Assembly: GCA_015272155.1 (NCBI GenBank)
Contig: JACYME010000010.1
Location: 1 to 57,935 of the forward strand
Reading direction: 5' to 3'
Length of the DNA: 57,935 nt
DNA from: Leptolyngbyaceae cyanobacterium T60_A2020_046
GTDB taxonomy: Bacteria > Cyanobacteriota > Cyanobacteriia > Phormidesmidales > Phormidesmidaceae
Made by a program: the position numbers and the translations under genes. Under the pieces are notes generated by a model. That model did not search any database. It saw nothing but the letters and a program-made list of their open reading frames with translations, and was not told where the DNA came from. Positions 3,970 to 29,062 of this stretch are shown one piece after another (within the stretch, counting starts at the first letter, position 1; the number at the start of each line of letters is the position of its first letter).

Positions 3970-3983
3970 CTTTTGTAGCCCTT

Positions 3984-5504: not shown

Positions 5505-5555
5505 TCGGGATACCAGGCTTCAGGGTTAGTATTCCACACCACCCCATCGAACCTT

Positions 5556-6341
5556 TCAGCGGATCACTTTCTTCAAACCCAGCCGCTGCCCCAGCACTTG
5601 TAGCCCAAACAGCACCACAAAAGCTGGATTATTCACACAATATCGCCGCCAGAGACGACGGGGCTCGCGGCTAAAGCGATAGAGCCATTCGAGCCCGAGG
5701 CCCATCATCCAGCGCGGAGCCTGAGACACGGTGCCACTGTGAAAGTCAAAGGCGGCCCCCACGCCCACCATCACCGCTGCTAACTGTCCCCACTGGCGCG
5801 CCATCCAAAATTCTTGCTTGGGGCAGCCCAGCCCGACAAACACCACCCGTGCCCCAGAGGCGGCAATGCGGGCGCGATCGGCCTCCTCCTCTGCTGGGGT
5901 CAGGGGGCGAAAGGGGGGGGCATAGTCCCCGGCGATGATCAAACCAGGGAAGCGCTCAGTCAATGTAGTCCGTAAACGTTCGAGCGTTGCTGTCGTGCCG
6001 CCATAGAGATAGATGGAGATCTGGGTCTGCGCAGCGCGATCGCACCAGGCCAGCATCAAATCTGGGCCGTAGACGCGGGTTTGACTCGCGAGGCCCAACA
6101 GCCGCAACCCCCACACCAGGGGCATACCATCGGGGGTGACGAGGGCCGCCTTGGCCAATACCTGGCGGTAGGTCGCATCCCAGTAGGCCGTCATAACCAC
6201 ATGTACATTTGCCGCCACCACGTAGGCAGACTGACCCTGCTCAGCCCAGTGCTGGATGCGATCGCAGGCGTCATCATAGCGGGTGCCATCGATGCGCACG
6301 CCCAAAATTGATCTTGCTGCTAGTGGTGCAGGCTCTATCAC
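5556..6341 (-). CDS. WecG/TagA/CpsF family glycosyltransferase
   Basis: 261 residues, the usual family length. Diagnostic stretches are ILGVRIDGTRYDDA near the N-terminus, AANVHVVMTA, TPDGMPLVWGLRLLG, VYGPDLMLAWC, FVGLGCPKQEFWMARQ and GVGAAFDFHSGTVSQAPRWM, in family order. Members add the second sugar (for example ManNAcA or ManNAc) to a polyprenyl-diphosphate-linked primer on the cytosolic face of the membrane. The neighbouring genes, a priming transferase downstream and GT2 enzymes upstream, fit this second step. wecB at 19329-20462 could supply UDP-ManNAc as donor, which is an inference from co-occurrence. Confidence 0.9.
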   Translation of the reverse strand: MIEPAPLAARSILGVRIDGTRYDDACDRIQHWAEQGQSAYVVAANVHVVMTAYWDATYRQVLAKAALVTPDGMPLVWGLRLLGLASQTRVYGPDLMLAWCDRAAQTQISIYLYGGTTATLERLRTTLTERFPGLIIAGDYAPPFRPLTPAEEEADRARIAASGARVVFVGLGCPKQEFWMARQWGQLAAVMVGVGAAFDFHSGTVSQAPRWMMGLGLEWLYRFSREPRRLWRRYCVNNPAFVVLFGLQVLGQRLGLKKVIR

Positions 6342-6378
6342 CCCTGACCTCCTTGGGTTTCTCCGCTCGGTTTTGCCG

Positions 6379-7302
6379 TCACCGTTGCCGCCCCGCTGCG
6401 ATCGCCACCCGCCGAAAGAGCCTTGCCGGAATCAAAAAGGCCGCGATCGTCGAGAACTGACATTCGCCCCGGCGGATGTGCTGCCACACGCAGCGGCGAT
6501 AGTGACGAATTTCGTCGCGATCGCCCATCCATTTACTGCCCAACAACAATAGCTCATGGGCACGGTAGGCAAGCCCCTCTTTCTCATAGAGAGAAAAGTG
6601 TTTTTTTGCTACCCGATACCAAGCCATCGGCGTCACTTTTTTACTGTTTTGGCCAAAGTATTTTCGCCAAATGTAAATCACCTCACGGGTCGGATAATGG
6701 GCACAGGGCAATGCCATTGCCCGCATCCAAAACTCCACATCATGGAGGTCTGCGGCCCCCATGTGGGCATCACTCTGTCCTACTGCTTCCCAAAGCCACT
6801 TGCGCAACGGAGCCGTACCAATCAGTTGCCAATTGCTGCTCAGAGAGAAAGGGCGCGATCGCAACATTTCGCGCAGGGTTAACGGTTTGGCTAGGACGAG
6901 TCGATTCTCACCAGGGCGATCTTGTCGAGAGTAGCTGCCATAAATAAAGCCCGCATCGGGATGCGCATCAAAGGCCGCCGCGATCGCTGCCAATGCCCCC
7001 TCCGGCAATAGATCATCGGCATCCAGCGGCACCAAAATTGCGCCATTCGCCGCTGCAAAGCCCGCATTTCGAGCAATTGAGGGGCCACCATTTTGGGCCT
7101 GCCAAAGCACAGTCACGTCGCCCTGTTTCTCCAGTTCTCGACAGACCTGATTGGTCGCTTCATCGGGAGATGAATCATTGACTAAAATAATTTCCCTGGG
7201 CAAAACTGACTGGCTTAATACACTCTGAATCCCTTCGAGCAACAGCCGCCCTTCTCGATAGCAGGTCATCACAACGCTGAGGTCAGACTGCGGATTTAAC
7301 AT
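6379..7302 (-). CDS. Family 2 glycosyltransferase
   Basis: 307 residues from the ATG at 7302, which lies 5 nt after the stop of the upstream GT2 gene. The open frame extends further upstream (to 7425) but would overlap that gene, so the shorter start is preferred. The GT-A fold is clear: DLSVVMTCYREGRLLLEGI at the N-terminus, VNDSSPDEATNQV, NGGPSIARNAGFAAANG and the metal-binding LDADD motif. A WMRAMALPCAHYP stretch resembles the acceptor-side region of SpsA-type enzymes. It probably adds one sugar of the repeat unit in the cytosol. Donor and linkage cannot be inferred. Confidence 0.88.
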   Translation of the reverse strand: MLNPQSDLSVVMTCYREGRLLLEGIQSVLSQSVLPREIILVNDSSPDEATNQVCRELEKQGDVTVLWQAQNGGPSIARNAGFAAANGAILVPLDADDLLPEGALAAIAAAFDAHPDAGFIYGSYSRQDRPGENRLVLAKPLTLREMLRSRPFSLSSNWQLIGTAPLRKWLWEAVGQSDAHMGAADLHDVEFWMRAMALPCAHYPTREVIYIWRKYFGQNSKKVTPMAWYRVAKKHFSLYEKEGLAYRAHELLLLGSKWMGDRDEIRHYRRCVWQHIRRGECQFSTIAAFLIPARLFRRVAIAAGRQR

Positions 7303-7307
7303 TGCAA

Positions 7308-8207
7308 TTATCCCCCAACCTTTTCCTGGCGAAAGATGCGATAACGCCAGCCCCCAGGCAAACACCGCAAAATTGTTAGGGGCACAATACTGGCGTATTT
7401 CTTGAGAAACATCACCACACCCCACAGCCCATAGGCTTGGCGATTAATTTGCCACCAAACTCGCCAGCTTAGACCAGAGTAGGGGTTAAACACTAATCGA
7501 ATCAGCTGCCACGGATCTCCAGGGGTCATCAACCAATCTGAAGGGCACAGTCGTGATTCTCCCGTGGTGTTATAGACCGAATGACGACCATCTACAAATA
7601 GATGAAACCCACATCGCTGTGCCTTGAGCAAATACAAGGAATCTCCAGCATAGTGTGGTGCAGTGGTCATATCGGGATAGCCGATTTGCTCAATAACTGC
7701 ACGCGGAAAACAGACCAGGTTGCCGCTCAGCAAGTCACAGGAAATGACGGATTCTTCGGGAGCTTCAATAAAGCGAAAGCCGCGCCAGGTTTTACGCTTT
7801 CCGCCAAAGGAAAGGCGCGTTGGGTCAGACTTTTCATAGCCCTGGCCACCCACAATCGCCTTGGGAGTAGTGCGGCAAAATTCAACTAAATCCGCGATCG
7901 CAGCCGCCGAGACTAGACAATCATCATTCAGCCAGATCAAAAACTCGGCTCCGGCAGCGACGGCGTATTCCATGCCCAGCGCGATCGCCCCTGTCCACCA
8001 CAGATGACCATCTCCCTCCAGCACCATCACCTCAGGATAGTCGGCTCGAATCGCCGCCCGCGTCCCATCCGTTGAGCCATCGTCAACAACAATAACGGTT
8101 GCCCATTCAAAGATGCGATCGCGTCTGAGTTGGGATAGACAAGACAACGTAATTTCCCGGCGATTGTGAACTGGAATAATGAGTGCAACCCGCTGATTTT
8201 CCATCAC
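7308..8207 (-). CDS. Family 2 glycosyltransferase (rhamnosyltransferase-like)
   Basis: 299 residues from a GTG at 8207; an in-frame ATG directly follows at 8204. Motifs: VALIIPVHNRREITLSCL, VIVVDDGSTDGT, GDGHLWWTGAIALGMEYA and IWLNDDC, with the WND-type metal site in place of DxD. A C-terminal GDSLYLLKAQRCGFHLFVDG follows. The GDGxLWWTGA pattern is typical of GT2 enzymes annotated as rhamnosyl- or related transferases in O-antigen clusters. It abuts the stop codon of the upstream paralogue (8208) with no gap and aligns with it end to end without gaps in the first 71 residues, so the pair is a tandem duplication. Its specific sugar is unknown. Confidence 0.88.
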   Translation of the reverse strand: MMENQRVALIIPVHNRREITLSCLSQLRRDRIFEWATVIVVDDGSTDGTRAAIRADYPEVMVLEGDGHLWWTGAIALGMEYAVAAGAEFLIWLNDDCLVSAAAIADLVEFCRTTPKAIVGGQGYEKSDPTRLSFGGKRKTWRGFRFIEAPEESVISCDLLSGNLVCFPRAVIEQIGYPDMTTAPHYAGDSLYLLKAQRCGFHLFVDGRHSVYNTTGESRLCPSDWLMTPGDPWQLIRLVFNPYSGLSWRVWWQINRQAYGLWGVVMFLKKYASIVPLTILRCLPGGWRYRIFRQEKVGG

Positions 8208-9110
8208 TTAAAACTTTTCTGAAATTCGATCTTTGACTCGCTTCAATTGCTTCACAATTGAAATTGGAAGAATAGCCCTTAACAGGGTAAACCCAGTAAG
8301 CATAATGTAAGACCGACAAAACGGATAGATCCCCTGCCACCCATAAAATCGCAAGCAGAACCGCCAATTTGTGGGCACATGTAAGCTCGATCGATAGGAA
8401 CCCATTGACCTCCACCAATCCAGCATAGGAATTGCACTCGACGACCATCCCTCCAACAGCGGGTTCAATTCACAAACTGCCTTTGCATCTCCAACTACCT
8501 TCACGTCATATCCTGCTTTTTTTGCCTCCCAGGTGTAGACAATATCAGCAGAACAATGGGGCAGGATATCCGCCGGAGGAAACCCCAAATCATCAACCAC
8601 CGATCGCGGCAAACACACCAAGTTTCCGCTCAAGCAATCGCAGGCGAGGACTTCCCCATCTCCCGCTGCAATTAAGCGCGTTGAAAATCGATAACGCATC
8701 TGACCTCCATAGGTCGGCTGATTAAAGTCTGTGGAGGCATAACACTGCGCCGAGGCTAAACACCGGGGATGATGCTCACAGTAATTCACCAAAGTTGCGA
8801 TCGCCCCTGCCGCAGGTATCACGTCATCATTCAGCCATAGGAAATAGTCAGCGCCTTCTTCATAGGCTGCCTGCATTCCCAACGCGATCGCCCCCGTCCA
8901 CTAGAGGTTCCCATCCCCATGCAAGACAGTCACTTCAGGAAAGTGCGTTTGAATCGCGATCGCGGTGCCATCTGTAGATCCATCATCCACCACAATCACG
9001 GAATACTGCTTAAATACTCCCTGATGCCGCAGCGTAGCCAAACAGCGCAGCGTAATTTTCCGACGGTTATGAACCGGGATAATGATAGAGACACAGTGCG
9101 CAATTTTCAT
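8208..9110 (-). pseudogene. Family 2 glycosyltransferase interrupted by an in-frame TAG
   Basis: The frame 9110-8208 is 301 codons, in phase throughout, but codon 70 is TAG (positions 8903-8901). Before it are SIIIPVHNRRKITLRCL, VIVVDDGSTDGT and VLHGDGNL; after it are WTGAIALGMQAAYEEGADYF, LWLNDDVIP and a normal C-terminus. The downstream paralogue has Trp-70 Trp-71 at this point (GDGHLWWTGA), so a single TGG-to-TAG change explains the stop. The rest of the protein, including the metal-site WLNDD, is undamaged, which implies a recent event, suppression or an assembly error. Reinitiation at Met-79 (ATG at 8876) would give a protein lacking the nucleotide-binding half. It is the first gene of the minus-strand polysaccharide operon. 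Confidence 0.85.
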
Positions 9111-9386
9111 CGTTCATTTCCTGAACTCCCAAGTCAAACCCGCCCCAGATGAACCTGAGCTTTCATGTCAATATCAAGCACACATTACAAATTTTTTAAA
9201 CAAGTGTCCCTCTATACAAAATTCCCGGAACCCTTAAAGTTATCCAAGGGGGATCACAAAAGTTCACTTGCTGATATTGTGAGTTCACAGCACCCAAGGC
9301 AGAAAAACAGCCTGCTTCTGCCAATCCACCATAAAAATTCCCCGAAAATTGGGCACTCTAAACAAGTGGTTGCTTGAGATACAGTC
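9111..9386. promoter_or_regulatory. Divergent intergenic region between the two polysaccharide arms
   Basis: This AT-rich gap separates the minus-strand glycosyltransferase operon from rfbA on the plus strand, so promoters for both arms must lie here. I see no coding frame with recognisable content and no strong inverted repeat. It also marks the left border of the AT-richer segment. Confidence 0.5.
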
Positions 9387-10277
9387 ATGAAAGGAATTAT
9401 TCTTGCCGGTGGATCGGGGACACGCCTTTATCCCCTCACCCAGGGCATCAGTAAGCACCTGCTTCCCATCTATGATAAGCCGATGATTTATTATCCCTTA
9501 TCAACGCTGATGCTGGCCGGCATTCAGGATATCTTGATTATCGTTAATCCCAGAGATATCAGTGCCTTCCAGGCATTGCTCGGCACTGGAGAGCAATGGG
9601 GTATTCGGCTACAATATGCAGAGCAGGCGGTTGCCCGTGGTGTTGCCGATGCATTTCGGATTGGGGCTTCATTTATCGGCACCGATACCGTTACGCTCAT
9701 CCTTGGAGATAATGTCTTTTATAGTGAGGGACTGACCACACTTTTAGAAAAGGCAAGTAGTCTTGAAGTTGGTGCAAAAATTTTCGCCTATTACGTCAAT
9801 GATCCCCGCCCCTATGGCGTGATTGAGTTCAATCGATTGGGTCAAGTGATCGAGATTCAAGAAAAGCCGGAAAACCCTCGATCAAACTATGTTGTTCCTG
9901 GTATCTACTTCTACGATAATTCCGTCATTCAAAAAGCTCAAGTTATCCAGCCGTCAAACAGAGGGGAGTTGGAAATTGGAGACATTAACGAGCAATATCG
10001 CCAGGAAGGAAAACTGGCGGTTGAGGTGCTGGGTCGGGGGATGGCTTGGCTCGATGCCGGAACCTACGACTCGCTTCTTCAAGCCTCTAACTTTATTGAA
10101 GCCATTGAAAGCCGACAGGGCTTGAAGATTGCGTGTTTAGAGGAAATTGCCTATCGACGCCATCTCATATCATTAGAGCAGGTCAACGCGATCGCGAGCC
10201 AGATGTACAACACTGCCTATGGCCAGTATCTTTTGAAGCTGTGCCGTGAAGAAGCGGAAAATAAAGGGTTGAGATAG
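9387..10277 (+). CDS. rfbA: Glucose-1-phosphate thymidylyltransferase
   Basis: 296 residues, the normal RmlA length. The N-terminal nucleotide-binding signature MKGIILAGGSGTRLYPLT, the KHLLPIYDKPMIYYPLSTLM block, LILGDNVFY, IQEKPENPRSNYVVPGIYFY and MAWLDAGTYDSLLQAS are all RmlA hallmarks. It makes dTDP-glucose from dTTP and glucose 1-phosphate, the entry point to dTDP-rhamnose and dTDP-amino sugars. rfbB, rfbC and rfbD are not in the window. With a DegT aminotransferase downstream, a dTDP-amino-deoxy sugar product is plausible, provided a 4,6-dehydratase is encoded elsewhere. The following 288 nt (10278-10565) contain no gene I can recognise. Confidence 0.95.
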   Translation: MKGIILAGGSGTRLYPLTQGISKHLLPIYDKPMIYYPLSTLMLAGIQDILIIVNPRDISAFQALLGTGEQWGIRLQYAEQAVARGVADAFRIGASFIGTDTVTLILGDNVFYSEGLTTLLEKASSLEVGAKIFAYYVNDPRPYGVIEFNRLGQVIEIQEKPENPRSNYVVPGIYFYDNSVIQKAQVIQPSNRGELEIGDINEQYRQEGKLAVEVLGRGMAWLDAGTYDSLLQASNFIEAIESRQGLKIACLEEIAYRRHLISLEQVNAIASQMYNTAYGQYLLKLCREEAENKGLR

Positions 10278-10565
10278 GGCTCAGTCTGATTCAACGGGTA
10301 GGATTTGCCCAGCGAGGTGCTTGGTGACTGACGCAACATCCTGAATCACGGGAATTCACGGAGCATCCTATGCTCAGGCTAGGGCAACCTAACAATATCG
10401 TCTTTTACTCAAAATCCGTTGTGCCGCATTCCGGTGATAGGCCCAAGTAACCACGCGGGTTCTCATTTATCTGGGAGATATTCTTGTATCGAAACGTGGG
10501 TTGTCAAGATTAGTCGCGATCGCAATCACCGCACCATAAATTCACGCTAAGGGAAACAACGTTAA

Positions 10566-11354
10566 ATGGGCGTTATCCCCAATTCACTCAAGTTCGTTAA
10601 GCAGCATATCAAAAAACGCCTTGATCAGGAAAGTTTCCATCCTGAGCTTATTGGGATATTGACTAATCCCTTCTATTTTGCGCGGCGGGGACTCTCAAAA
10701 AATATTGAGAGGCTAAGCTCAGAGATTCAGGGAAAAGTCTTAGATGTCGGATGCGGCACTCAACCCTACCGTCAATTTTTTAGTCAGTGTAAGTATCATG
10801 GTTTAGAACTCGATACTCCAGAAAACCGCAGTAGCAAAGTTGCGGATTCATTTTACGATGGCAAGGTTTTACCCTTCGCCGAAAATAGCTTCGATTCTCT
10901 TATCGTTAATCAAGTTTTGGAGCATATTTTTGAACCCGATCGTTTTCTCGATGAAGCTCATCGAGTCCTAAAACCTGGAGGACACCTATTGCTAACTGTC
11001 CCATTTCTCTGGGACGAGCATGAGCAACCCTTTGACTATGCGCGATATTCATCATTTGGCATTGTCTATCTCTTAGAGAAACATCAGTATTCAATCATCG
11101 AGTCACATAAAAGTGTTTGCGGAATCCAAGCTATCGTTCAAATCTGGAATGCCTATCTTTACAAAGTTACCTTTCGAAACTCACGGCTCTGGAACTTGAT
11201 TGTGGCGCTATTGTTGATGGCTCCAGGGAATATCCTGGGGATCCTTCTCTCCTGGATTTTGCCACAAAACTCAGACATCTACCTGGATAATATTATCCTC
11301 GCTAAAGCAGAACAAAAAACTCATCTATCCCATGAAAATGCTGCCGAGACTTGA
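10566..11354 (+). CDS. SAM-dependent class I methyltransferase
   Basis: 262 residues. Motif I is VLDVGCGTQPYRQFF (near residues 58-72), followed by the acidic YHGLELDTPENR strand, VLPFAENSFDSLIVNQVLEH and EAHRVLKPGGHLLLTVPFLW. That is the Methyltransf_11/UbiE-type layout. After residue 190 there is a hydrophobic C-terminal stretch (LWNLIVALLLMAPGNILGIL) that could associate with the membrane. It lies in the O-antigen cassette and its 3' end overlaps the next gene by about 20 nt, indicating co-translation. It probably methylates a sugar or a glycolipid intermediate; the acceptor is unknown. Confidence 0.85.
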   Translation: MGVIPNSLKFVKQHIKKRLDQESFHPELIGILTNPFYFARRGLSKNIERLSSEIQGKVLDVGCGTQPYRQFFSQCKYHGLELDTPENRSSKVADSFYDGKVLPFAENSFDSLIVNQVLEHIFEPDRFLDEAHRVLKPGGHLLLTVPFLWDEHEQPFDYARYSSFGIVYLLEKHQYSIIESHKSVCGIQAIVQIWNAYLYKVTFRNSRLWNLIVALLLMAPGNILGILLSWILPQNSDIYLDNIILAKAEQKTHLSHENAAET

Positions 11355-12324
11355 TGGAAAAACAGTCCTGATCTTAGGAGGGCTTGGCTTTATTGGGACA
11401 GCGTTGGCACATCGATCTATTGCTCTTGGCGCGACCACAATTGTTGTGGACAACTTACTCCAGGACCACGGAGGAAACCCATATCACTTTGAACAACTTA
11501 AGAACCAAGCCGAAATTTATATCAAGGATATCCAGAGTTCTGATGTTCTCGCTTCTCTTATTTCCAAGGCAGATTTTATCTTTGACCTTGCTGCCCAGAC
11601 TGGGCATCTTAGATCGATGCAAAATCCCTGCCTTGACTGCGACATCAATGTTGTTGCCAAACTGAAAATCCTGGAGCTTTGTAGGCAACTCAATCCTTCA
11701 GTAAAAATTATTTTTACGAGTACGCGACAAGTCTATGGAAAACCCCAAAGGCTGCCTGTCGATGAAACCCATCCAGTTCATCCTGTCGATTTCAACGGGA
11801 TTCACAAGCTCACTGCTGAGTGGCATCTTCAGATGTACCACCAAATCTATGGGATTCCCTCTGTCATTTTGAGGCTTACTAATATCTATGGAAGAGGAAT
11901 GCGAATCAAGGATACAACTCAAAACTTCATCGGTTTTTGGATCCGTCAAATCTTAGAAGAAAAGCCAATTCCCATCTATGGAGATGGCAAGCAAATTCGA
12001 GATCCGTTGCATGTCGATGATTTGGTTCAAGCACTTTTGCTTGCTGCATTGAGTAAACACTCAACTGGGCAAATTTTCAACCTAAGTGGTTCTGAGCCTG
12101 TCACCCTAGATACGCTTGCCCAGAAAATGATTCAAGCTTATGGCTCTGGAAGTTGCCAATACATTGATTTCCCAGAAGGCAAGAAATCCATCGACATTGG
12201 TAGTTATTTTGGCGATAGTCAGAAGATTAAAATAAACTTGAGATGGGAGCCATTGGTCTCGCTGGAAGATGGCCTTAGGGATACCTTAGAGTATTATCAA
12301 AAACATCAATCTTTCTATCTATAA
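11332..12324 (+). CDS. NAD-dependent epimerase/dehydratase (extended SDR) with atypical active site
   Basis: 330 residues from ATG 11332 (a second ATG is at 11338). The Rossmann motif GGLGFIG at about residues 16-22 and VVDNLL, DLAAQTGH, FTSTRQVYGKPQRLPVDE, RLTNIYGRGM and GDGKQIRDPLHVDDLVQALL place it among extended SDR nucleotide-sugar epimerases and dehydratases. The usual catalytic YxxxK is read as NGIHK: the lysine is present but the tyrosine position is asparagine. The protein is otherwise complete. It may be a specialised epimerase or reductase that uses another base, or may have lost activity. It overlaps the methyltransferase and is followed 3 nt later by the aminotransferase. Confidence 0.85.
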   Translation: MKMLPRLDGKTVLILGGLGFIGTALAHRSIALGATTIVVDNLLQDHGGNPYHFEQLKNQAEIYIKDIQSSDVLASLISKADFIFDLAAQTGHLRSMQNPCLDCDINVVAKLKILELCRQLNPSVKIIFTSTRQVYGKPQRLPVDETHPVHPVDFNGIHKLTAEWHLQMYHQIYGIPSVILRLTNIYGRGMRIKDTTQNFIGFWIRQILEEKPIPIYGDGKQIRDPLHVDDLVQALLLAALSKHSTGQIFNLSGSEPVTLDTLAQKMIQAYGSGSCQYIDFPEGKKSIDIGSYFGDSQKIKINLRWEPLVSLEDGLRDTLEYYQKHQSFYL

Positions 12325-12327
12325 CAA

Positions 12328-13434
12328 GTGACGATGATTAGTTTGAATCACTTTCAGGCAGAGCCAGAATCCCTTATTCGTGCAGAGCTAGATGCGGTGG
12401 AAAGTGTGCTTCGCTCTGGATGGTATGTTCTGGGCGATCGCGTACAAACCTTTGAAGATGAGTGGAGTAAGTCCTGCGGAACTCGATTCGCAATCGGCGT
12501 GGGCAATGGGATGGATGCCATTGAGATCGGCCTTCGTGCCCTTGGTATCGGGTCAGGGGATGAGGTGATCACCACGAGTATGACGGCGTTTGCAACAGTC
12601 CTCGGTATTTTACGGGCAGGGGCAACTCCAGTTTTAGCCGACATTGATTTAGATACTGGGCTCATTCATATTGACAGCGCCCAACGTTGCATTACATCCC
12701 GTACCAAGGCAGTGCTGTTGGTTCATCTTTATGGTCGGATTTGCAACATGGCTGACTGGGTTCAATTCTGCCAGCAGCAGCATCTTTATCTTTTAGAAGA
12801 TTGCGCCCAATCCCACCTCGCAAGTTGGGATGGTAAGGTCGCTGGATCATTTGGCGAATGGGGTGCCTACAGTTTCTATCCCACCAAAAATCTTGGGGCA
12901 CGTGGCGATGGAGGTGCATTAGTCACGAATTCGGATTCAATTAATGACCAGGCGAAAATCTTGAGAAATTACGGGCAGGATGCTCAATATCATCACGAAA
13001 TTGAAGGGCTAAATAGCCGACTCGATGAATTGCAAGCTGCCTTACTATCTGTGCGCATCAAATGGTTAATGTCATTTACGGATAAGCGCCGCGCGATCGC
13101 GGATGCGTACTATTCAGGGATTGATAACCCCGGTGTGAAGCTATTGAGGCGAGAGTCCGATCGCCAGCACCATGTGTATCATCTATTTGTCATTCAAGTC
13201 GAGTCCCGAGACAAGTTGCTTCCCCATTTAAGAAACCACAACATTCGAGCAGGAATACACTATCCCATTCCAATTCATCATCAGCCCGTATGCAGAACAA
13301 TTCAGTACGATCCAAACGGGCTTGCCGCTGCGACCACCCATGCCCAGCACTGTCTTTCGTTACCTTGCCATCCTCAAATGAGTGACTCAGAGATTACTAC
13401 TGTCATCGAGGCTGTCAATGCATTTAGACCCTAA
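12328..13434 (+). CDS. DegT/DnrJ/EryC1/StrS family sugar aminotransferase
   Basis: 368 residues from GTG 12328; ATG at 12334 is the alternative. It has the aspartate-aminotransferase fold typical of sugar aminotransferases: SGWYVLGDRVQTFEDEW, GNGMDAIEIGLRALGIGSGD, HLYGRICNM, LEDCAQSHLASWDG, and the PLP-lysine segment YSFYPTKNLGARGDGG. It also has NSRLDELQAALL and HVYHLFVIQ. It should transfer an amino group from glutamate to a keto-deoxy nucleotide sugar, C3 or C4 undetermined. Together with rfbA it suggests synthesis of a dTDP-amino-deoxyhexose for the O-antigen. Its 3' end overlaps the start of the glycosyltransferase at 13418 by 17 nt. Confidence 0.92.
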   Translation: MTMISLNHFQAEPESLIRAELDAVESVLRSGWYVLGDRVQTFEDEWSKSCGTRFAIGVGNGMDAIEIGLRALGIGSGDEVITTSMTAFATVLGILRAGATPVLADIDLDTGLIHIDSAQRCITSRTKAVLLVHLYGRICNMADWVQFCQQQHLYLLEDCAQSHLASWDGKVAGSFGEWGAYSFYPTKNLGARGDGGALVTNSDSINDQAKILRNYGQDAQYHHEIEGLNSRLDELQAALLSVRIKWLMSFTDKRRAIADAYYSGIDNPGVKLLRRESDRQHHVYHLFVIQVESRDKLLPHLRNHNIRAGIHYPIPIHHQPVCRTIQYDPNGLAAATTHAQHCLSLPCHPQMSDSEITTVIEAVNAFRP

Positions 13435-14383
13435 GCACGAACACTTCTGCACGTTATTCAACAGTAAGTTTTTGCCCATGGGCTTGGCACTCTATGAGTC
13501 CCTGCGACAGCACTATGGGGAGCATTTTACGCTATGGGTAATTTGCATGGATGAAACGTTAGAGGACTACTTCCAGCGACTAAACCTGAGACAAATTCGA
13601 GAAATTTCCCTTCGCCAAATTGAAGATCAGGACTTACTTCAGGCAAAACAAACTAGGAATTTTCAGGAGTATTGCTGGACAGTAACGCCCTTTACATTTT
13701 CTGCCGTTTTCTCAGCAGATCCTGGCATTCAGAGAGTTACCTATCTAGATGCGGATCTTTATTTTTTTCAACGAGCAGATCTGATCTTTCAAGAACTAGA
13801 AGATAGTGGAAAGGATATTTTGATTACAGAGCACGCCTACGCTCCTGAATATGACTACTCGGAAGTTTCGGGTAGATTTTGTGTCCAGTTTATCACGGTT
13901 AAGCGAACGGAAAAAGCTCAAAAAATTATTGAAATCTGGCAAAAGCAATGTTTAGAGTGGTGCTATTCATACCCGGACGCTGGCAGGTTTGGCGATCAAA
14001 AGTATTTAGATCAATGGCCGACTGAATTCCCAGATAGTGTTCACATTTTGGAGGATCAGCAGCTTGCGCTAGCCCCTTGGAATGCCAGTTATATTGCTAG
14101 GACTAGAGGGAGTCTAGTCCCTGTGTTTTACCACTTTCACGGCTTTAGAATCTTTTCGGAGAAAAAAGCCCGAGCATTCTTTGGATATCGTATCTGTCCA
14201 GCGGCTGAAGTGTTTTATTTAGCCTATGTTCGGCATCTCCGATCGATCCTGATGCGAATAAATCAGCATGGAATTGCAACCCCGTTAATCCCTCTTAGTC
14301 CAGAGTCTCTGCACTGGAAACTCCCTTTTCGCCTCATTGCTCGGCGATTCAGAAAAGAAGTCAAGTATTATGCACTGAAGTGA
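13418..14383 (+). CDS. GT8-like nucleotide-diphospho-sugar transferase
   Basis: About 321 residues from ATG 13418, preceded by a GAGG ribosome binding site. A longer frame from 13382 would overlap the aminotransferase more deeply. The start HFCTLFNSKFLPMGLALYES, the metal-binding VTYLDADLYFF (DxD), FCVQFITVKRTEKAQ, RFGDQKYLDQWPTEF and an HFHGFRIF near residue 240 match the GT-A-fold family annotated as glycosyltransferase family 8 or nucleotide-diphospho-sugar transferase. It is the last gene of the plus-strand cassette and is coupled to the aminotransferase, so it may use that amino sugar as donor (inference). Confidence 0.8.
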   Translation: MHLDPKHEHFCTLFNSKFLPMGLALYESLRQHYGEHFTLWVICMDETLEDYFQRLNLRQIREISLRQIEDQDLLQAKQTRNFQEYCWTVTPFTFSAVFSADPGIQRVTYLDADLYFFQRADLIFQELEDSGKDILITEHAYAPEYDYSEVSGRFCVQFITVKRTEKAQKIIEIWQKQCLEWCYSYPDAGRFGDQKYLDQWPTEFPDSVHILEDQQLALAPWNASYIARTRGSLVPVFYHFHGFRIFSEKKARAFFGYRICPAAEVFYLAYVRHLRSILMRINQHGIATPLIPLSPESLHWKLPFRLIARRFRKEVKYYALK

Positions 14384-14443: not shown

Positions 14444-15730
14444 CTAGTTGTCAAGGGTTGTTAATTCCCAACTTAGTCTGGGGGCAATCACTCCTGGCCA
14501 AGATTCAGGAAGGAAGGAGCCATGCTGTCCTGCGCTTTCGATAAAAAAGCTCAGAAACTTTGTTTCTGCAAGGATGACTTTAAAGCCAGGGATGTCAATT
14601 GCGATCGCAACGTAGTGCAATCCAGGCTTGAATAGGTCGCCATAGATGTGGCACTGTGACCGATAGCACCCTGGCGGTGAGTCTGGGGGGCGAGTGGCAT
14701 GATCCGTCGATGCAAACAATATGACCCCAGACAGATCAGATACCTCGACCGTGAGCCGAAACCCGCTCACCTTCTTGAAGAGACAGTAATCAATTTCAAC
14801 GGTGATTGGAGCGGCGGGATCAAAGGAGCTTTGGATTTTTCCATCTGGGTTGAGTAGTCTCACTGCACTCAGCCGGATTTCATCATTGCCGGGTGCCTTA
14901 GAGAGATCAGCCCACTTTTTCTCGCCCTGGGACGAATCTTCATCTTCTCCAGAGGCCAGATAGGCTTCAATCACAGCATCCGTTGTCCCGTGTTGAATCA
15001 ATTGTCCTTTTTCTAGAAAAATGGCGGAGTTGCATAAAGATTTCACTGCCCCCATGTTGTGGCTGACAAACAAAATACTTCTGCCATCTTTTCCAGAGGT
15101 ATCTTCCATTTTTCTGAGACATTTTTTCTGGAAGTTGACATCTCCGACGGCAAGGACTTCGTCAATGACCAGAATTTCTGCGTCTAAGTGTGCAGCTACT
15201 GAGAACGCAAGTCGCATATACATGCCTGATGAGTAGCGTTTCACCGGAGTATCTAGAAAGCGCTCCACCTCGGCAAACGCCACAATTTCATCAAACTTCT
15301 TCCGAATCTCGACGCGACTCATGCCTAAGATTGAGCCATTGAGAAAAACATTTTCTCGCCCTGTCAATTCTGGATGAAATCCCGTACCGACTTCTAGCAA
15401 ACTCGCAACCCGACCTTGGATAGTAATGCGTCCAGCACTCGGCTCTGTGATTCGGCTGAGAAGCTTTAGCAGCGTTGACTTACCTGCTCCATTGCGACCA
15501 ACGACACCTAAGACTTCACCCGCTTTGAGGTTGAAGGAAACATCTTTTAGGGCCCAAAAAGTTTCTTGGTTTTGGTTTTCTCGGAAAACGTTTTTTCGTT
15601 GTCTGAGCGATCGCCCCAGGGTTTTCACACTATCGGTTAACACGTCGCGCAGTGCAGTGTAGCGCTGTGGTTGATGCCTTAGCGTATAGGTTTTTCCCAA
15701 GTTATTCACTTGAACTACGGTGTCTGACAT
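14444..15730 (-). CDS. wzt: Polysaccharide ABC exporter ATPase with Wzt-type C-terminal domain
   Basis: 428 residues. The nucleotide-binding domain occupies about residues 1-245, with Walker A GRNGAGKSTLLKLL, ABC signature RYSSGMYMRLAFSVAA, Walker B ILVIDEVLAVGD and H-loop FVSHNMGAV. The last 170 residues (from about 260) form an extra beta-rich domain of the Wzt C-terminal type, which in O9a-like systems binds the modified end of the finished polysaccharide. It should power export of a lipid-linked glycan across the inner membrane with the permease at 16677. The methyltransferase gene between ATPase and permease fits a terminating modification recognised by this domain. Confidence 0.93.
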   Translation of the reverse strand: MSDTVVQVNNLGKTYTLRHQPQRYTALRDVLTDSVKTLGRSLRQRKNVFRENQNQETFWALKDVSFNLKAGEVLGVVGRNGAGKSTLLKLLSRITEPSAGRITIQGRVASLLEVGTGFHPELTGRENVFLNGSILGMSRVEIRKKFDEIVAFAEVERFLDTPVKRYSSGMYMRLAFSVAAHLDAEILVIDEVLAVGDVNFQKKCLRKMEDTSGKDGRSILFVSHNMGAVKSLCNSAIFLEKGQLIQHGTTDAVIEAYLASGEDEDSSQGEKKWADLSKAPGNDEIRLSAVRLLNPDGKIQSSFDPAAPITVEIDYCLFKKVSGFRLTVEVSDLSGVILFASTDHATRPPDSPPGCYRSQCHIYGDLFKPGLHYVAIAIDIPGFKVILAETKFLSFFIESAGQHGSFLPESWPGVIAPRLSWELTTLDN

Positions 15731-15821
15731 GTGTTCTAGGGGCGTTGTCTATAACTATCTTTATCTTGCGATCGCGCGACGATCCGACATCAGCCACTTC
15801 AACCATCATTGGAAACTGGAG

Positions 15822-16655
15822 TTAGCACTCGGTTAGCCGCTCGAAGATGAGCCCACGATGGATGCCATCATGGATGACTGCCGCACTATCGGGGGTGTCA
15901 AATTCTGCCACCAGTTGGTATTTTCCTGAGAAATGGGAGAGAAACGTTTCTCGGTTAAAGAACCATGCAGGAAAGCTCGTTTGGGGATAGATGGACGGCG
16001 GCACCGTTTGAACGACGATACGATCTGTGCGATCGCTGAGCACAAATGAGGTGCGATCGATCAGAATCGTCTGAATCCCAAGACGGACAAACTTCTCCAA
16101 GAACTCGTGGGGACTTTCTAGGGCTTGCAGCACAGCCGACAGCAGTAGCACATGAATTGACGGGATCTGATCAAGGCACTCTTCCACGGTCGCGAAGAAC
16201 TTTAGCTCATGATCTTGAAATTCAGCTTGGCCAATCTCGACAAACTTTCCTTGTTCGACAATGCACCACTGCAAGTCTGAAACTGGCTTAAGCATTTGAC
16301 GGTTTTGATAGTAGCTACTGCCGAGCCCTCCGCCAAAATCTAGCACGTGGAGCTTGCCGCCGTGGGCTAGGGCGGCGCGTAGAAGACCACTTAGAAGTGG
16401 CCACGAGTAATGAACTTGATCAAATAAAACTGAGTCGCGCTCGTAAACTGCCTCGCCCTGCTTTACTTTGAGCGCTGCTTTGCGAACGCGACCAAAAACA
16501 GTGTCTGAGTTCCAACTTGTACTGACTTTTACTGCGGCTTCCCAGGTGGGATAATCCCCTGAAAACCCGAAGAAACTACCCTCTCTCAGATATTCCCGAA
16601 TTCTAAAAAAGGCGGGCGGTATGAACTCTTTGAGATGTCGTTTAAGCTGATTCAT
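15822..16655 (-). CDS. Methyltransferase of the TIGR04325 type
   Basis: 277 residues. The protein has FFGFSGDYPTWEAAVKVSTS near the N-terminus, a DFGGGLGSSYYQN motif I at about residue 107, QWCIVEQGKFVEIGQ, VLLLSAVLQALESPHEFL, and TILIDRTSFVLSDRTDRIVV. This combination is characteristic of the TIGR04325 family of putative methyltransferases found in LPS clusters. It sits 21 nt downstream of the permease and 91 nt upstream of the ATPase of an ABC polysaccharide exporter. A role in capping or modifying the exported chain is likely but not proven. Confidence 0.85.
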   Translation of the reverse strand: MNQLKRHLKEFIPPAFFRIREYLREGSFFGFSGDYPTWEAAVKVSTSWNSDTVFGRVRKAALKVKQGEAVYERDSVLFDQVHYSWPLLSGLLRAALAHGGKLHVLDFGGGLGSSYYQNRQMLKPVSDLQWCIVEQGKFVEIGQAEFQDHELKFFATVEECLDQIPSIHVLLLSAVLQALESPHEFLEKFVRLGIQTILIDRTSFVLSDRTDRIVVQTVPPSIYPQTSFPAWFFNRETFLSHFSGKYQLVAEFDTPDSAAVIHDGIHRGLIFERLTEC

Positions 16656-16676
16656 GATGGGTAATGCAGGAAGGTC

Positions 16677-17507
16677 TTAGATGATATCGGCAAAGGTCTT
16701 TTCTACTTTGCGGAAGTTAAGGATGCCACTGATGAGTAGTAGATTAACAAGGAAGAACGACACCATAAATCCGGGCCAGTAGAGCTGGACATCGCCGCCG
16801 ATAATAGCCCAGCGAAATCCATCAATGACGCTCACCATTGGGTTGAGGGAGTAGAGCAACCGCCAGCGTTCAGGGACGATCGCGCTGCTAAAGCCCACGG
16901 GCGAAATATATAATCCAAACTGCACCAAGAACGGTACAACATATCGAAAGTCTCGATACTTTACATTTAATGCTGCGAGCCAGAGCCCGCTGCCCATGGC
17001 TGCGGCAAACCCAATCGCGATGAAAATCGGTAGCGTGATAATTCGCCAGGAAGGGACAGCATCGTACCAAGCCATCAGCCCCAATAGGATAAATCCAGAG
17101 ATCAAAAAGTCTACGAAGCTGACAATTACAGCACTGGCAGGAATGATTAGGCGCGGGAAGTAGATCTTTGAAATCAAGTTTGTGTTTTCAATTAGGCTAT
17201 TGCTACATTCTGTGAGGGCATTGGAAAAGAACTGCCAGGGCAGCATTCCAGCAAATACTAGGACGGGGTAAGGGGCATTGCCTTCGCTGGGCAAATTTGC
17301 CAGTCTTCCAAAGACGACGGTAAATACGAGCATGGTGAGAAAAGGGCGTAGGAGCGCCCAAAATACCCCGATCGCAGTTTGTTTGTAGCGTACTAAGATA
17401 TCGCGCCACGCCAGAAAGTAAAACAGCTCGCGATAGCGCCAGAGATCCTGCCAGTATTGGGCTTCTGTGCGGCCCGCTTCAATGATGATGGGGGAGTGTG
17501 GCGACAT
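16677..17507 (-). CDS. wzm: Polysaccharide ABC exporter permease (ABC-2 type)
   Basis: 276 residues with six predicted TM helices. The cytosolic N-terminus YWQDLWRYRELFYFLAWRDI and VRYKQTAIGVFWALLRPFL are the classic start of Wzm/TagG permeases. FAGMLPWQFFSNALTECSNS, NTNLISKIYFPRLIIP and VKYRDFRYVVPFLVQFGLY follow in order. It forms the channel for an undecaprenyl-diphosphate-linked polysaccharide, energised by the Wzt-like ATPase at 14444. It is the first gene of a three-gene minus-strand operon. Confidence 0.93.
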   Translation of the reverse strand: MSPHSPIIIEAGRTEAQYWQDLWRYRELFYFLAWRDILVRYKQTAIGVFWALLRPFLTMLVFTVVFGRLANLPSEGNAPYPVLVFAGMLPWQFFSNALTECSNSLIENTNLISKIYFPRLIIPASAVIVSFVDFLISGFILLGLMAWYDAVPSWRIITLPIFIAIGFAAAMGSGLWLAALNVKYRDFRYVVPFLVQFGLYISPVGFSSAIVPERWRLLYSLNPMVSVIDGFRWAIIGGDVQLYWPGFMVSFFLVNLLLISGILNFRKVEKTFADII

Positions 17508-17921
17508 AAACTATCGGGGCTTGTGCAAGGGGCTGATGCTGCCAATCTAGCGGGGTTCAAACCCCTGGCAATGACAAGAAACCGAGAAATGTGGATGGAC
17601 TGTGAAGCAAACCCATGGCGTTGTATGGTCATTGTGCCCTGGTTTGCCCGAAAAATTTATCGAGATTTTGCCGCGATCGCGATCGCGCAACCCACTGGGG
17701 AAAGCTGCTCCAAGCCTGAACCGCCTGCAAACTACCGTGGGGAGTGGAGCGCTATCCTGCGATACGAGTGTCGGCATGATGCAATCGCGCTTAGCTAAGG
17801 TTCGGGAAATTCACAGAGCGATCGCATAAAGATTTCTTAAGGGCTACGGGCATAATAATCCCAGTAAAATCCCGTGACTTTAATTCCCTGTGTGCTCTGC
17901 ACTCTTAACTAGGGAACGCCG
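17508..17921. other. Intergenic region between wzm and the ethylene-receptor-like kinase
   Basis: 414 nt between divergent genes. It contains overlapping HIP1 copies near 17673-17688 and a short hairpin around GGGGTTCAAACCCC (about 17552-17565) that resembles a tRNA T-arm but lacks the rest of a tRNA. Promoters for both flanking genes must lie here. No convincing coding frame was seen. Confidence 0.5.
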
Positions 17922-19319
17922 ATGTTGTTTAGCTCTGCACTTTTGGCCTACATCCCCCACGGCCACTGTTACCTGTGGCAAACGGGGTTAGTCAGCCTTC
18001 ATATCACCGCTGATCTGTTGATTGCGCTGGCCTATTTCTCCATTCCATTAGCGCTCATTTACTTTGCCCGCAAACGCCAGGATTTGCCTTTCAAAGGGGT
18101 TTTCGTCCTCTTTGGGGCATTTATTGTCTTCTGCGGTACAACCCATCTCATGGCGATTTGGACGCTGTGGCATCCAGACTATTGGCAAGCTGGTGCGCTC
18201 AAAGCCGCTACCGCCTTTGTGTCTGTGATGACAGCGGTGACCTTGGTGCCTGTGGTGCCCAAGGCCCTGAACCTACGTAGCCCTGCGGATCTGGAGGCGG
18301 CGAATGTGGCGCTGGCACAGGAAGTTCGCGATCGCCAGGCCGCAGAGACCCAACTTCAGGCCCAGAACCAAGCCCTGACTGACACACTCAACGAGTTGCA
18401 CAAGACCCAAATCATGCTTGTCCAAAACGAGAAAATGTCAAGCCTTGGGCAGCTTGTCGCAGGCATCGCCCACGAGTTGAACAACCCCGTCAGCTTTATC
18501 TCGGGCAATTTGCCCCACATTCAAACCTACGCAGACGACCTGTTTCGCCTTCTTCAGGCGTATCAAACCTGTTATCCCAATGTGGATGAGTGTGTCGCCG
18601 CGATCGCGGCCGACATTGACCTCGCCTTTTTGCAAGAGGACTTACCTCGTCTGTTGGGTTCTGTGAAGGCAGGCTGCAACCGAATTCGCGAAATTGTCCT
18701 GTCCCTGCGCAGCTTTAGCTGCCTGGATGAATCAGGGATCAAATCCATTCATCTGCACACGGCCCTCAACAACACCCTGGTGGTGTTGAGCAATCGGCTG
18801 CGCGGCCATGGCCAGCGCCCAGATATTCAGGTCGAGACGCACTATGGTGATCTACCAACCGTGGAGTGCGATGCTGGGGCACTCAATCAGGTGTTTTTGA
18901 ACCTCTTGAGCAACGCGATCGAAGCCATTGAAGCGCGGTGGTCACTGGACAACGAGCTTGCTGGGCAGGGCCGCATCACCATTTACACGGATCTGAAGGC
19001 TACGGGGATGGTGCGTGTTGCGATCGCAGACAACGGCATTGGCATTCCGCTTGAGGTGCAGCGGCGCATGTTTGACCCATTCTTCACCACCAAGCCCGTT
19101 GGCCAAGGGACAGGGATGGGGCTAGCCATCAGCTATCAAGTGGTGGTTGAGCAACATCGCGGCACGCTGACCTGTGAGTCTCAGGTTGGTGAGGGAACAA
19201 CAGTGGTGATGGAAATTCCGGTGCGATCGCGGGTTTCCCGTAATCCGCGATCGCCCTTTCCGTCAGAATCCTCTTGCCCGTTGCCTGGTGTGCAAACCGT
19301 CCGCCCTGCGATCACATGA
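17922..19319 (+). CDS. Ethylene-receptor-type sensor histidine kinase
   Basis: 465 residues. Residues 25-115 form three TM helices that match the plant ETR1 ethylene-binding domain closely (AYFSIPLALIYF, FGAFIVFCGTTHL). With a constant offset of 6, all the key ETR1 positions are present: Asp31, Tyr38, Ile41, Pro42, and the copper ligands Cys71 and His75. A coiled-coil linker (about 120-170) leads directly, without a GAF domain, to a HisKA domain with phospho-acceptor His184 in GQLVAGIAHELNNPVSF. An HATPase domain follows (N-box LNLLSNAIEAIE, DNGIGIP, TKPVGQGTGMGLA). No receiver domain and no adjacent regulator gene. It probably senses ethylene through copper at the membrane, as known for Synechocystis Etr1; the output here is unknown. 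Confidence 0.9.
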   Translation: MLFSSALLAYIPHGHCYLWQTGLVSLHITADLLIALAYFSIPLALIYFARKRQDLPFKGVFVLFGAFIVFCGTTHLMAIWTLWHPDYWQAGALKAATAFVSVMTAVTLVPVVPKALNLRSPADLEAANVALAQEVRDRQAAETQLQAQNQALTDTLNELHKTQIMLVQNEKMSSLGQLVAGIAHELNNPVSFISGNLPHIQTYADDLFRLLQAYQTCYPNVDECVAAIAADIDLAFLQEDLPRLLGSVKAGCNRIREIVLSLRSFSCLDESGIKSIHLHTALNNTLVVLSNRLRGHGQRPDIQVETHYGDLPTVECDAGALNQVFLNLLSNAIEAIEARWSLDNELAGQGRITIYTDLKATGMVRVAIADNGIGIPLEVQRRMFDPFFTTKPVGQGTGMGLAISYQVVVEQHRGTLTCESQVGEGTTVVMEIPVRSRVSRNPRSPFPSESSCPLPGVQTVRPAIT

Positions 19320-19328
19320 GTGACGAGT

Positions 19329-20462
19329 TTAGGCGTGGGGCAACCCGGCCTGGCGCACAATTTCGAGAATGCGCCGAGCGGCTTGACCATCCCCAAAGGG
19401 GTTCACGGCCTTGGCCATCTGGTCATAGGCGACGGGATTGCTGAGCAGCTCGCTCGCTGCCGCCGCGATCGCGGGGGGATTTGTCCCCACCAGCTTGGCC
19501 GTGCCCGCCTCCACCGCCTCGGGGCGCTCTGTCGTCTCCCGCAATACCAGCACGGGTTTCCCGAGCCCCGGCGCTTCTTCCTGCAACCCGCCAGAATCCG
19601 TCAGCAGCAGGGTGCAGCGCTGCATCGCGCCCACCAGGTGGTGGTAGTCCAGCGGTTCTGTCAAAAATACGCGCGGATGATCCCCAAGGCGCTGGGTCAA
19701 GGGCTCGCGCACGGTGGGGTTGCGATGCAGCGGCAACAGCAGCGCCGTATCGGGAAATTTATTGAGGATGGTCAAAAAGCCTGTGGCGATGTCGTGCAGG
19801 GGCTCGCCCCAATTTTCGCGACGGTGAACGGTGGCAAGAATAACGCGATGCTGGTTCCAGTCGAGCCCTGGAATGTCACAGGCGGGATGCTGTGCCGCGA
19901 TCGCCAACAGCGCATCAATCACCGTATTCCCGGTTTGGTGAATGGCACCCACCACGCCCGATCGCCGCAAATGCTCCACCGAAGTCCGCGTCGGCGCAAA
20001 GTGCAGGTGGGTAATCTGCGAAATCAGCCGTCGATTCGCCTCTTCGGGAAACGGATTCCACAGATCATCCGTCCGCAGACCCGCCTCCACATGGCCAACC
20101 GCAATCTTTTGATAAAAGGCCGCCAGGGCCGCCGCAAAGGCCGTCGTCGTATCGCCCTGGACGATCACCAACTGGGGCTGATACTTCTGAAAACAGCGCT
20201 CTAGCCCGTGCAGGCTGCGGCAGGTGATATCGGTCAAACTTTGCTGGGGCTGCATGATGTCGAGATCTTCATCGGCCCGGAGTTGAAACAGGTCCATCAC
20301 CTGCGCCACCATTTCGCGGTGTTGCCCCGTCAAAATGACGCGCGTGTCCATGTCTTCGGCCTGTTGGAAGACCCGAATCACCGGAGCTAGCTTAATTGCC
20401 TCGGGTCGAGTGCCAAGGGTAATGCAAACGCGAAGGGGGGATGCGGTAGACATAGCGGGCAA
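19329..20462 (-). CDS. wecB: UDP-N-acetylglucosamine 2-epimerase (non-hydrolysing)
   Basis: 377 residues from ATG 20462; ATG 20453 is equally possible. Family motifs: CITLGTRPEAIKLAPVI, ILTGQHREM, VQGDTTTAFAAALAAFY, VGHVEAGLRT, NPFPEEANRRLI, TVHRRENWG, LTDSGGLQEEAPGLGKPVLV and ETTERPEAVEAGTA. It interconverts UDP-GlcNAc and UDP-ManNAc in the cytosol, feeding ManNAc or ManNAcA into surface glycans, and may supply the WecG-like transferase at 5556. It converges with the kinase gene with only 9 nt between stops. The long open frame on its opposite strand is a shadow. Confidence 0.95.
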   Translation of the reverse strand: MPAMSTASPLRVCITLGTRPEAIKLAPVIRVFQQAEDMDTRVILTGQHREMVAQVMDLFQLRADEDLDIMQPQQSLTDITCRSLHGLERCFQKYQPQLVIVQGDTTTAFAAALAAFYQKIAVGHVEAGLRTDDLWNPFPEEANRRLISQITHLHFAPTRTSVEHLRRSGVVGAIHQTGNTVIDALLAIAAQHPACDIPGLDWNQHRVILATVHRRENWGEPLHDIATGFLTILNKFPDTALLLPLHRNPTVREPLTQRLGDHPRVFLTEPLDYHHLVGAMQRCTLLLTDSGGLQEEAPGLGKPVLVLRETTERPEAVEAGTAKLVGTNPPAIAAAASELLSNPVAYDQMAKAVNPFGDGQAARRILEIVRQAGLPHA

Positions 20463-27622: not shown

Positions 27623-29062
27623 TCACATCGGGGCGCGATTGCGATAGAGATAGGTGTGCATCATGCCCCGTCCCTTCACTGCGACGCGGCCTCGGTCTTC
27701 AAAGTCGTAGCGATCTTTCAGGCGCGTGTAAGTCATTTCGCTAACTTGGATGCGATCGATGACCCCTTGGGATTCCATGCGGCTGGCGATATTGACCGCA
27801 TCGCCCCATAGGTCATAGCTGAACTTTTTGATGCCAATCACACCGGCTACCACGGGGCCGGTGTTGATGCCAATGCGGAGATGAAAGGGGTTACCATCAC
27901 TGCGGCGTAGATGCGCGATCGCCTGCTGCATTTCCACCGCCATTTCCAGAATGGCTTCGGCATGGTCGGGGCGGGGGTTGGGTAACCCACCGACAACCAT
28001 GTAGGCATCACCAATGGTTTTAATTTTCTCTAGGCCCAGGCGCTCGGCGATACAGTCAAAGGCCGAAAAAATCTCGTTGAGCAGGCATACCAGCTCGTTG
28101 GGCGAGACGCTGACAGACAGGGTGGTAAAGTCCACAATGTCGGCAAAGAGGATGGTTACTTCGTCAAACCGAGACGCGATCGCGCCGGTTTCGGCCTTCA
28201 GTTGCTCGGCGATGGACTGGGGCAAAATGTTGAGCAGCAGGCGTTCCGTTTTTTCGCGCTCCTCGGTTAGGGCGGCCTCGGCCTGCTTGCGGGTCGTAAT
28301 TTCTTGATGCACCCGCTCAAACATTTCTAAAAAGGCTTTGGATACTTCTCCCAGTTCATCGTTTCGCTTGAGGCTGCGGGTGTAGAAGTTGGGCTCTCCA
28401 TCCTGGCTCACCAGTTCTCCGGCTTTGCACAAATCATCGCGGAGGCGCAAAATCGGCATGATCAAAATCCGCTCCAATACGATGATCGTGACGAAGGTGA
28501 CAAAGAGGGAAATGATGATCACTAACCCCGCGATCGCCAGCACATACTGGCGCATTTCTTGATTCACGCGGGTGGCGTCATGGCGCACCATAATCGCATA
28601 CTCATTCATGCCCGATCGCCCGGGCCAGGCTACATCGTAATGGCGGCGATCGCGACTGATGCGCCGCACAATTTCTCCCTCTGCCAGGGCCGCAAAGGCC
28701 ACCTCGGGCAAGAGCCCAACCTGGGCAATGAGGCGGCCATCCGGCGCATACACCGCCACCCCACGGATGACCGAATCGGGCTGGAGAAACAAATCAATGT
28801 TGTTGAGGATGTCCGAGGTGTCAGACTCGACCATCGCATTTGCCTTGACGGTGAACAACACCTCTGCCGACAACTCCTCAAGGCCCCGGAGTTTCTCGCG
28901 GCGGCGGCGGTGATAGGACGGCACAAAGATGATGCCCTCGATCACCAAGATGCTGAAGAATACCCACGCCACAATGCGCCGTGAGAGGCGCGATCGCAGC
29001 AGCCCTAGAGAGGATTGCAGAATGCTGGGCATGGCAAGGGTATGAATTGCGCAAAACTTCAT
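27623..29062 (-). CDS. Membrane-bound class III adenylate cyclase with HAMP domain
   Basis: 479 residues: TM helix at about 29-48, periplasmic sensor region (about 50-175), second TM (about 178-200), HAMP linker (about 205-260), short coiled coil, then the catalytic domain (about 300-475). Catalytic signatures: VTILFADIVDFTTLS (metal Asp residues), LEKIKTIGDAYMVVGGLP, LRIGINTGPVVAGVIG and YDLWGDAVNIASRME. The substrate-specifying residues are Lys (EKIK) and Asp (YDLWGD), which is the adenylate rather than guanylate cyclase pattern. Transition-state Asn and Arg (NIASR) are intact. It likely makes cAMP in response to a periplasmic signal. Confidence 0.92.
   Translation of the reverse strand: MKFCAIHTLAMPSILQSSLGLLRSRLSRRIVAWVFFSILVIEGIIFVPSYHRRRREKLRGLEELSAEVLFTVKANAMVESDTSDILNNIDLFLQPDSVIRGVAVYAPDGRLIAQVGLLPEVAFAALAEGEIVRRISRDRRHYDVAWPGRSGMNEYAIMVRHDATRVNQEMRQYVLAIAGLVIIISLFVTFVTIIVLERILIMPILRLRDDLCKAGELVSQDGEPNFYTRSLKRNDELGEVSKAFLEMFERVHQEITTRKQAEAALTEEREKTERLLLNILPQSIAEQLKAETGAIASRFDEVTILFADIVDFTTLSVSVSPNELVCLLNEIFSAFDCIAERLGLEKIKTIGDAYMVVGGLPNPRPDHAEAILEMAVEMQQAIAHLRRSDGNPFHLRIGINTGPVVAGVIGIKKFSYDLWGDAVNIASRMESQGVIDRIQVSEMTYTRLKDRYDFEDRGRVAVKGRGMMHTYLYRNRAPM

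Follow-up and report, generated by a model that had tools for sequence, protein, structure and literature searches.

A probable short-form ethylene-receptor histidine kinase with a conserved ligand site in the cyanobacterium Leptolyngbyaceae T60_A2020_046

The window analysed here, a whole stretch of 57,935 nucleotides, encodes at positions 17,922 to 19,319 of the forward strand a histidine kinase with an ethylene-binding domain. We consider it very likely that this protein is a short-form, membrane-bound ethylene receptor of the cyanobacterial type, working through the steps proposed below. All known key positions match those of the plant ethylene receptor; therefore, the window kinase probably senses ethylene, and the best reading of its sequence is a functional copper/ethylene sensor.

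The open reading frame is complete, running from ATG to stop over 465 aa, and the whole protein has a full-length relative (G010/L032) at 62% identity. Pfam placed ETR1_N (PF25487) at residues 23 to 118 (17,988–18,275), scoring 145.5 bits where the cut-off is 27 (E 5.8e-43), far above chance expectation, and hydropathy and the structural model predict three transmembrane helices in this domain. It is followed by HisKA (residues 175 to 199, 30 bits) and HATPase_c (residues 317 to 435, 90.2 bits). According to Pfam, motifs and the model, the dimerisation and phosphotransfer region spans 18,441–18,728 and contains the H-box IAHELNNP with His184, while the catalytic domain (18,870–19,226) carries the N box NLLSNAIEA (327), the G1 box DNGIG (370) and the G2 box GTGMGLA (396). 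All four kinase motifs are intact. Pfam detected no GAF, PAS or other domain between ETR1_N and HisKA, and this segment, from about residue 119 to 173 (18,276–18,440), is a helical linker.

The structure prediction was built from 12 aligned short-form receptors and had a mean pLDDT of 69 (57–66 in the transmembrane part); therefore, the model is only indicative. It shows helices at residues 22–51, 58–81 and 85–115, with hydropathy peaks near 30–42, 62–74 and 99–109, then an unbroken helix (121–216) spanning the linker and the phosphoacceptor His184, and a second dimerisation helix (234–269) ahead of the ATPase fold. Hydrophobic residues at the a and d heptad positions of the linker were moderately enriched (0.53 vs 0.36). 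Since the enrichment is only moderate, "helical, probably coiled coil" is a fair wording: the coiled coil described between sensor and kinase in the initial annotation holds as a helix in the model, and as a coiled coil only with probability. Our search for solved structures of the ethylene sensor domain found none.

In the alignment to Arabidopsis ETR1, the seven residues required for ethylene binding are all kept, with Asp31, Tyr38, Ile41, Pro42, Ile68, Cys71 and His75 corresponding to Asp25, Tyr32, Ile35, Pro36, Ile62, Cys65 and His69 at a constant offset of +6. The codons of Asp31, Cys71 and His75 lie at 18,012–18,014, 18,132–18,134 and 18,144–18,146, respectively. Past a three-residue loop difference, ETR1 Lys91 is matched by Lys94, and 46 of 113 aligned residues in the transmembrane domain are identical. 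In the AtETR1 sequence used for this alignment, all eight published residue numbers hit the expected letters. The literature names seven residues as needed for ethylene binding by ETR1 (PMC6682694, PMC11819568) and gives Lys91 a role in output (PMC11819568); the seventh required residue we take to be Ile62. The initial annotation had reported the offset of six for every one of these residues except Ile68, which it did not list and which also fits. In identifying a kinase of the ethylene-receptor type whose ligand site is intact, it is well supported by the sequence, in the ETR1_N match and the seven residues. Cys71 and His75, whose loss in close orthologues it had named as contrary evidence, are present in all aligned short-form relatives; moreover, the full set of seven is kept in 12 of 12 aligned short-form receptors.

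By homology to ETR1, SynEtr1 and AzoEtr1, Cu(I) would be held by Cys71 and His75 within the three transmembrane helices, with Asp31 positioning both, and ethylene would bind to the copper. Ethylene binding has been measured for the homologous SynEtr1 and AzoEtr1 domains, whose Cys and Asp mutants lose it (PMC6682694, PMC11819568). From the architecture seen in the sequence and in the moderate-confidence model, the signal may travel through the single continuous linker helix of the dimer into the His184 helix, and His184 would be autophosphorylated by the HATPase domain. The phosphate would then pass, by analogy, to one of the many response regulators encoded elsewhere in the genome, and ethylene probably lowers kinase output, as judged from SynEtr1. 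An orphan response regulator, which the initial annotation had suggested looking for, was not found on the contig, and no cognate regulator lies near the kinase. The sole receiver domain on the contig (56,211–56,561) is about 37 kb away and beside its own HisKA_3 kinase, and no receivers were seen among the scanned neighbours of related loci. Consequently, we regard the window kinase as an orphan.

It is important to consider that the conservation of the ligand site speaks more directly for copper binding than for ethylene as the signal. The protein might then bind copper and respond physiologically to Cu(I), another alkene, or the membrane or redox state, and in Nostoc genes for kinases of the same type do adjoin a HupE/UreJ-family metal permease. 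We consider this improbable because the non-metal residues Tyr38, Ile41, Pro42 and Ile68, the loss of any of which abolishes ethylene binding by ETR1, are also kept, homologous domains expressed alone bind ethylene (PMC6682694, PMC11819568), and the window kinase has no HupE gene alongside.

Upstream, the kinase gene shares a 414-bp intergenic region (17,508–17,921) with a divergent ABC export operon on the reverse strand (14,444–17,507), assigned by profile matches to an ABC-2 permease (16,677–17,507), a TIGR04325 methyltransferase (15,822–16,655) and a Wzt-like ATPase (14,444–15,730). Downstream, at 9 bp, lies the convergent wecB gene for UDP-GlcNAc 2-epimerase (19,329–20,462, reverse strand; TIGR00236, 520.8 bits). 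With the export operon diverging from it and wecB converging on it, the kinase gene stands alone, in no operon with either neighbour. Before the export operon, positions 1,360–14,383 hold a surface-polysaccharide cluster (O-antigen ligase, sugar transferase, WecG, GT2, nucleotidyl transferase, epimerase and DegT aminotransferase). Farther along the window, the reverse strand encodes an adenylate/guanylate cyclase catalytic domain (27,623–29,062; 214.9 bits); an HNOBA-like stretch there is weak, its 20.8 bits falling short of the cut-off of 23.4. Promoter and terminator scans gave hits no more often than in shuffled sequence.

The adjacency of polysaccharide export genes was described correctly in the initial annotation, with the specification that they lie on the opposite strand; the surface polysaccharide and pilus changes that it cited as an ethylene output are documented for Synechocystis (PMC6508509). 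Control of the adjacent export operon by the kinase on ethylene would be compatible with an ethylene receptor, and the 414-bp divergent region shared with a Wzm/Wzt-type operon could be read in this way, as could the ethylene-dependent changes in glycosyltransferase and pilus transcripts and in surface sugars of Synechocystis (PMC6508509). A sugar-transferase gene also lies 1–3 kb from the same-type kinase in four Nostoc loci; however, these represent one conserved block, with the transferase on the opposite strand. Furthermore, kinases do not regulate by proximity, no regulator gene accompanies the window kinase, both of its neighbours are on the opposite strand, and its closest relative has different ones. 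In that relative (L032), a divergent SBP_bac_5 (solute-binding-protein) gene is upstream, and downstream come ORFs that Pfam does not match and then a PASTA-domain gene; the neighbours at L036 and L107 are unrelated, mostly housekeeping genes. Polysaccharide genes were not enriched near the receptors, occurring at 1 of 36 receptor loci against none of the 40 loci of control kinases (p 0.47 by Fisher's test), with a panel of the window's own polysaccharide proteins (E 1e-12) that would miss distant glycosyltransferases equally in both groups. Relatives of these genes were found at six of the 80 named loci, four of the six being the Nostoc block. A conserved polysaccharide neighbourhood was therefore rejected as support after the synteny comparison with the seven same-type loci and the control-kinase comparison, and the neighbourhood does not support the output that the initial annotation had linked with it. 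The export genes are probably outside the kinase's system, and we doubt that it controls them. A surface-sugar or pilus output in general is plausible from the Synechocystis responses; the polysaccharide link to the adjacent genes of the window is weak.

Ethylene-receptor kinases, including the short version, are common in cyanobacteria, and the window protein is not unusual among them; the family is already known to be widespread there, and the window kinase adds one member. The ETR1_N domain was present in 25 of 39 relative genomes, and the window genome itself (4.2 Mb in 250 contigs) has two such sensors; the second (C134) belongs to a frame of 1042 residues that also contains a receiver domain. 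Because 101 of 112 aligned domains, AtETR1 included, keep all seven ligand residues, complete conservation is the norm. The exceptions are mostly Pro to Ala changes (seven), plus L025 (Cys to Gly) and L026, with several. Among the 80 named domains nearest to that of the window, 38 have their first phosphoacceptor box within about 105 residues of the sensor and 34 have it farther on; in eight the box was unplaceable. The kinase thus directly follows a helical linker in 38 of the 72 with a placeable box, so that among near relatives this arrangement is the more common one. Accordingly, the GAF and PAS domains, whose lack the initial annotation had contrasted with Synechocystis Etr1 and plant receptors, are truly absent by Pfam, but this is not distinctive. 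The Pfam scan of nine short relatives likewise found neither domain, and these receptors carry at least three kinds of kinase.

Several relatives depart from the usual residues. L026 (Asp to Glu, Pro to Ala, Ile to Thr and Cys to Ser) and L025, from relatives G008 and G015, are possibly ethylene-blind paralogues. L017, L019, L020, L021 and L022, with Ala at the Pro36 equivalent and the rest intact, are natural tests of the need for this proline. The Lys91 counterpart, thought to be important to output and not to binding, is Arg or Gln in the long multi-domain proteins L002 (C134 of the window's own genome), L012, L014, L024 and L027. In addition, a record titled Thiomargarita sp. (L057, a metagenome bin) has an ethylene-domain kinase that shares 66% identity with the window domain, either by gene transfer or through bin contamination. 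Damaged sites in relatives, at the ligand residues of L026 (Asp to Glu, Cys to Ser) and L025 (Cys to Gly) and in the altered kinase G2 motif of L061, raise the thought of a degenerate or non-signalling receptor, which is very improbable for the window protein, whose ligand and kinase motifs are all intact and whose 62% relative retains the whole frame.

Compared with characterised receptors, the window kinase shares with Synechocystis sp. PCC 6803 SynEtr1 (Slr1212), of demonstrated ethylene binding, an N-terminal ethylene-binding domain and a C-terminal histidine kinase (PMC6508509, PMC6682694). SynEtr1, however, has a chromophore-binding GAF (a cyanobacteriochrome, so that it is also a light receptor) in place of a simple helical linker, and it adjoins the response-regulator genes slr1213 and slr1214, whereas the window gene has no adjacent regulator. 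GeiEtr1 of Geitlerinema sp. PCC 7105 likewise combines a cyanobacterial ethylene-binding domain, the seven residues and a kinase with no receiver, but at 655 aa it has a GAF between sensor and kinase (PMC6682694). AzoEtr1 of Azospirillum brasilense is also a short bacterial receptor (525 aa) with three transmembrane helices and the seven residues, and its binding and mutants have been assayed; it differs in a PAS ahead of the kinase and in being followed directly by a stand-alone response regulator (PMC11819568). Arabidopsis ETR1 resembles the window protein in the transmembrane domain, Lys91 included, but also has a GAF and a receiver domain. Signalling by plant receptors is mainly independent of their own kinase activity and runs via a Ser/Thr protein kinase (PMC11819568).

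As in the window protein, a kinase of the HE(L/I)NNP type directly follows the sensor in seven relatives (L032, L036, L054, L098, L109, L061 and L107; L109 was outside the Pfam scan of short relatives). The closest, L032/L113 of Leptolyngbyaceae cyanobacterium RM1_1_2 (JAAUQI010000018.1), is 62.9% identical over 434 residues, and L036 54%. The RM1_1_2 protein also has 465 aa, the same domain order, the seven ligand residues and no GAF or PAS; it differs in having the SBP_bac_5 gene and no export operon. Of the 65 genomes searched in the order, only this one other (G010) gave a full-length match covering the sensor (E 8e-183). Kinases matching the kinase core at about 50% identity are numerous per genome across the order, and 19 matches in the window's own genome reach E 1e-60 or better. 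In a tree of 66 kinase cores, the window protein pairs with L032 (100/95), the four Nostoc proteins group (100/99), and L036 and L107 are placed elsewhere. This tree needs four changes, although a single clade of all eight was not rejected (AU p 0.24), and it suggests repeated fusion of the ethylene sensor to the HE(L/I)NNP family. At two or more Nostoc loci, at least L054:7472-8167 and L098:7615-8268, the HupE/UreJ-family metal permease is directly downstream on the same strand, and a copper-dependent receptor linked with it is possible in Nostoc.

These results show that the short receptor architecture is common, and the window kinase is at most a convenient small receptor in which, without chromophore or GAF, the effect of ethylene on kinase activity would be easier to study. 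Tentatively, the short form may be a minimal switch for ethylene, with the gas site acting through one helix on a generic cyanobacterial HE(L/I)NNP kinase that has been duplicated many times, and the sensor may have joined this kinase family more than once. If this were true, the ethylene-binding domain would be a freely exchangeable input module.
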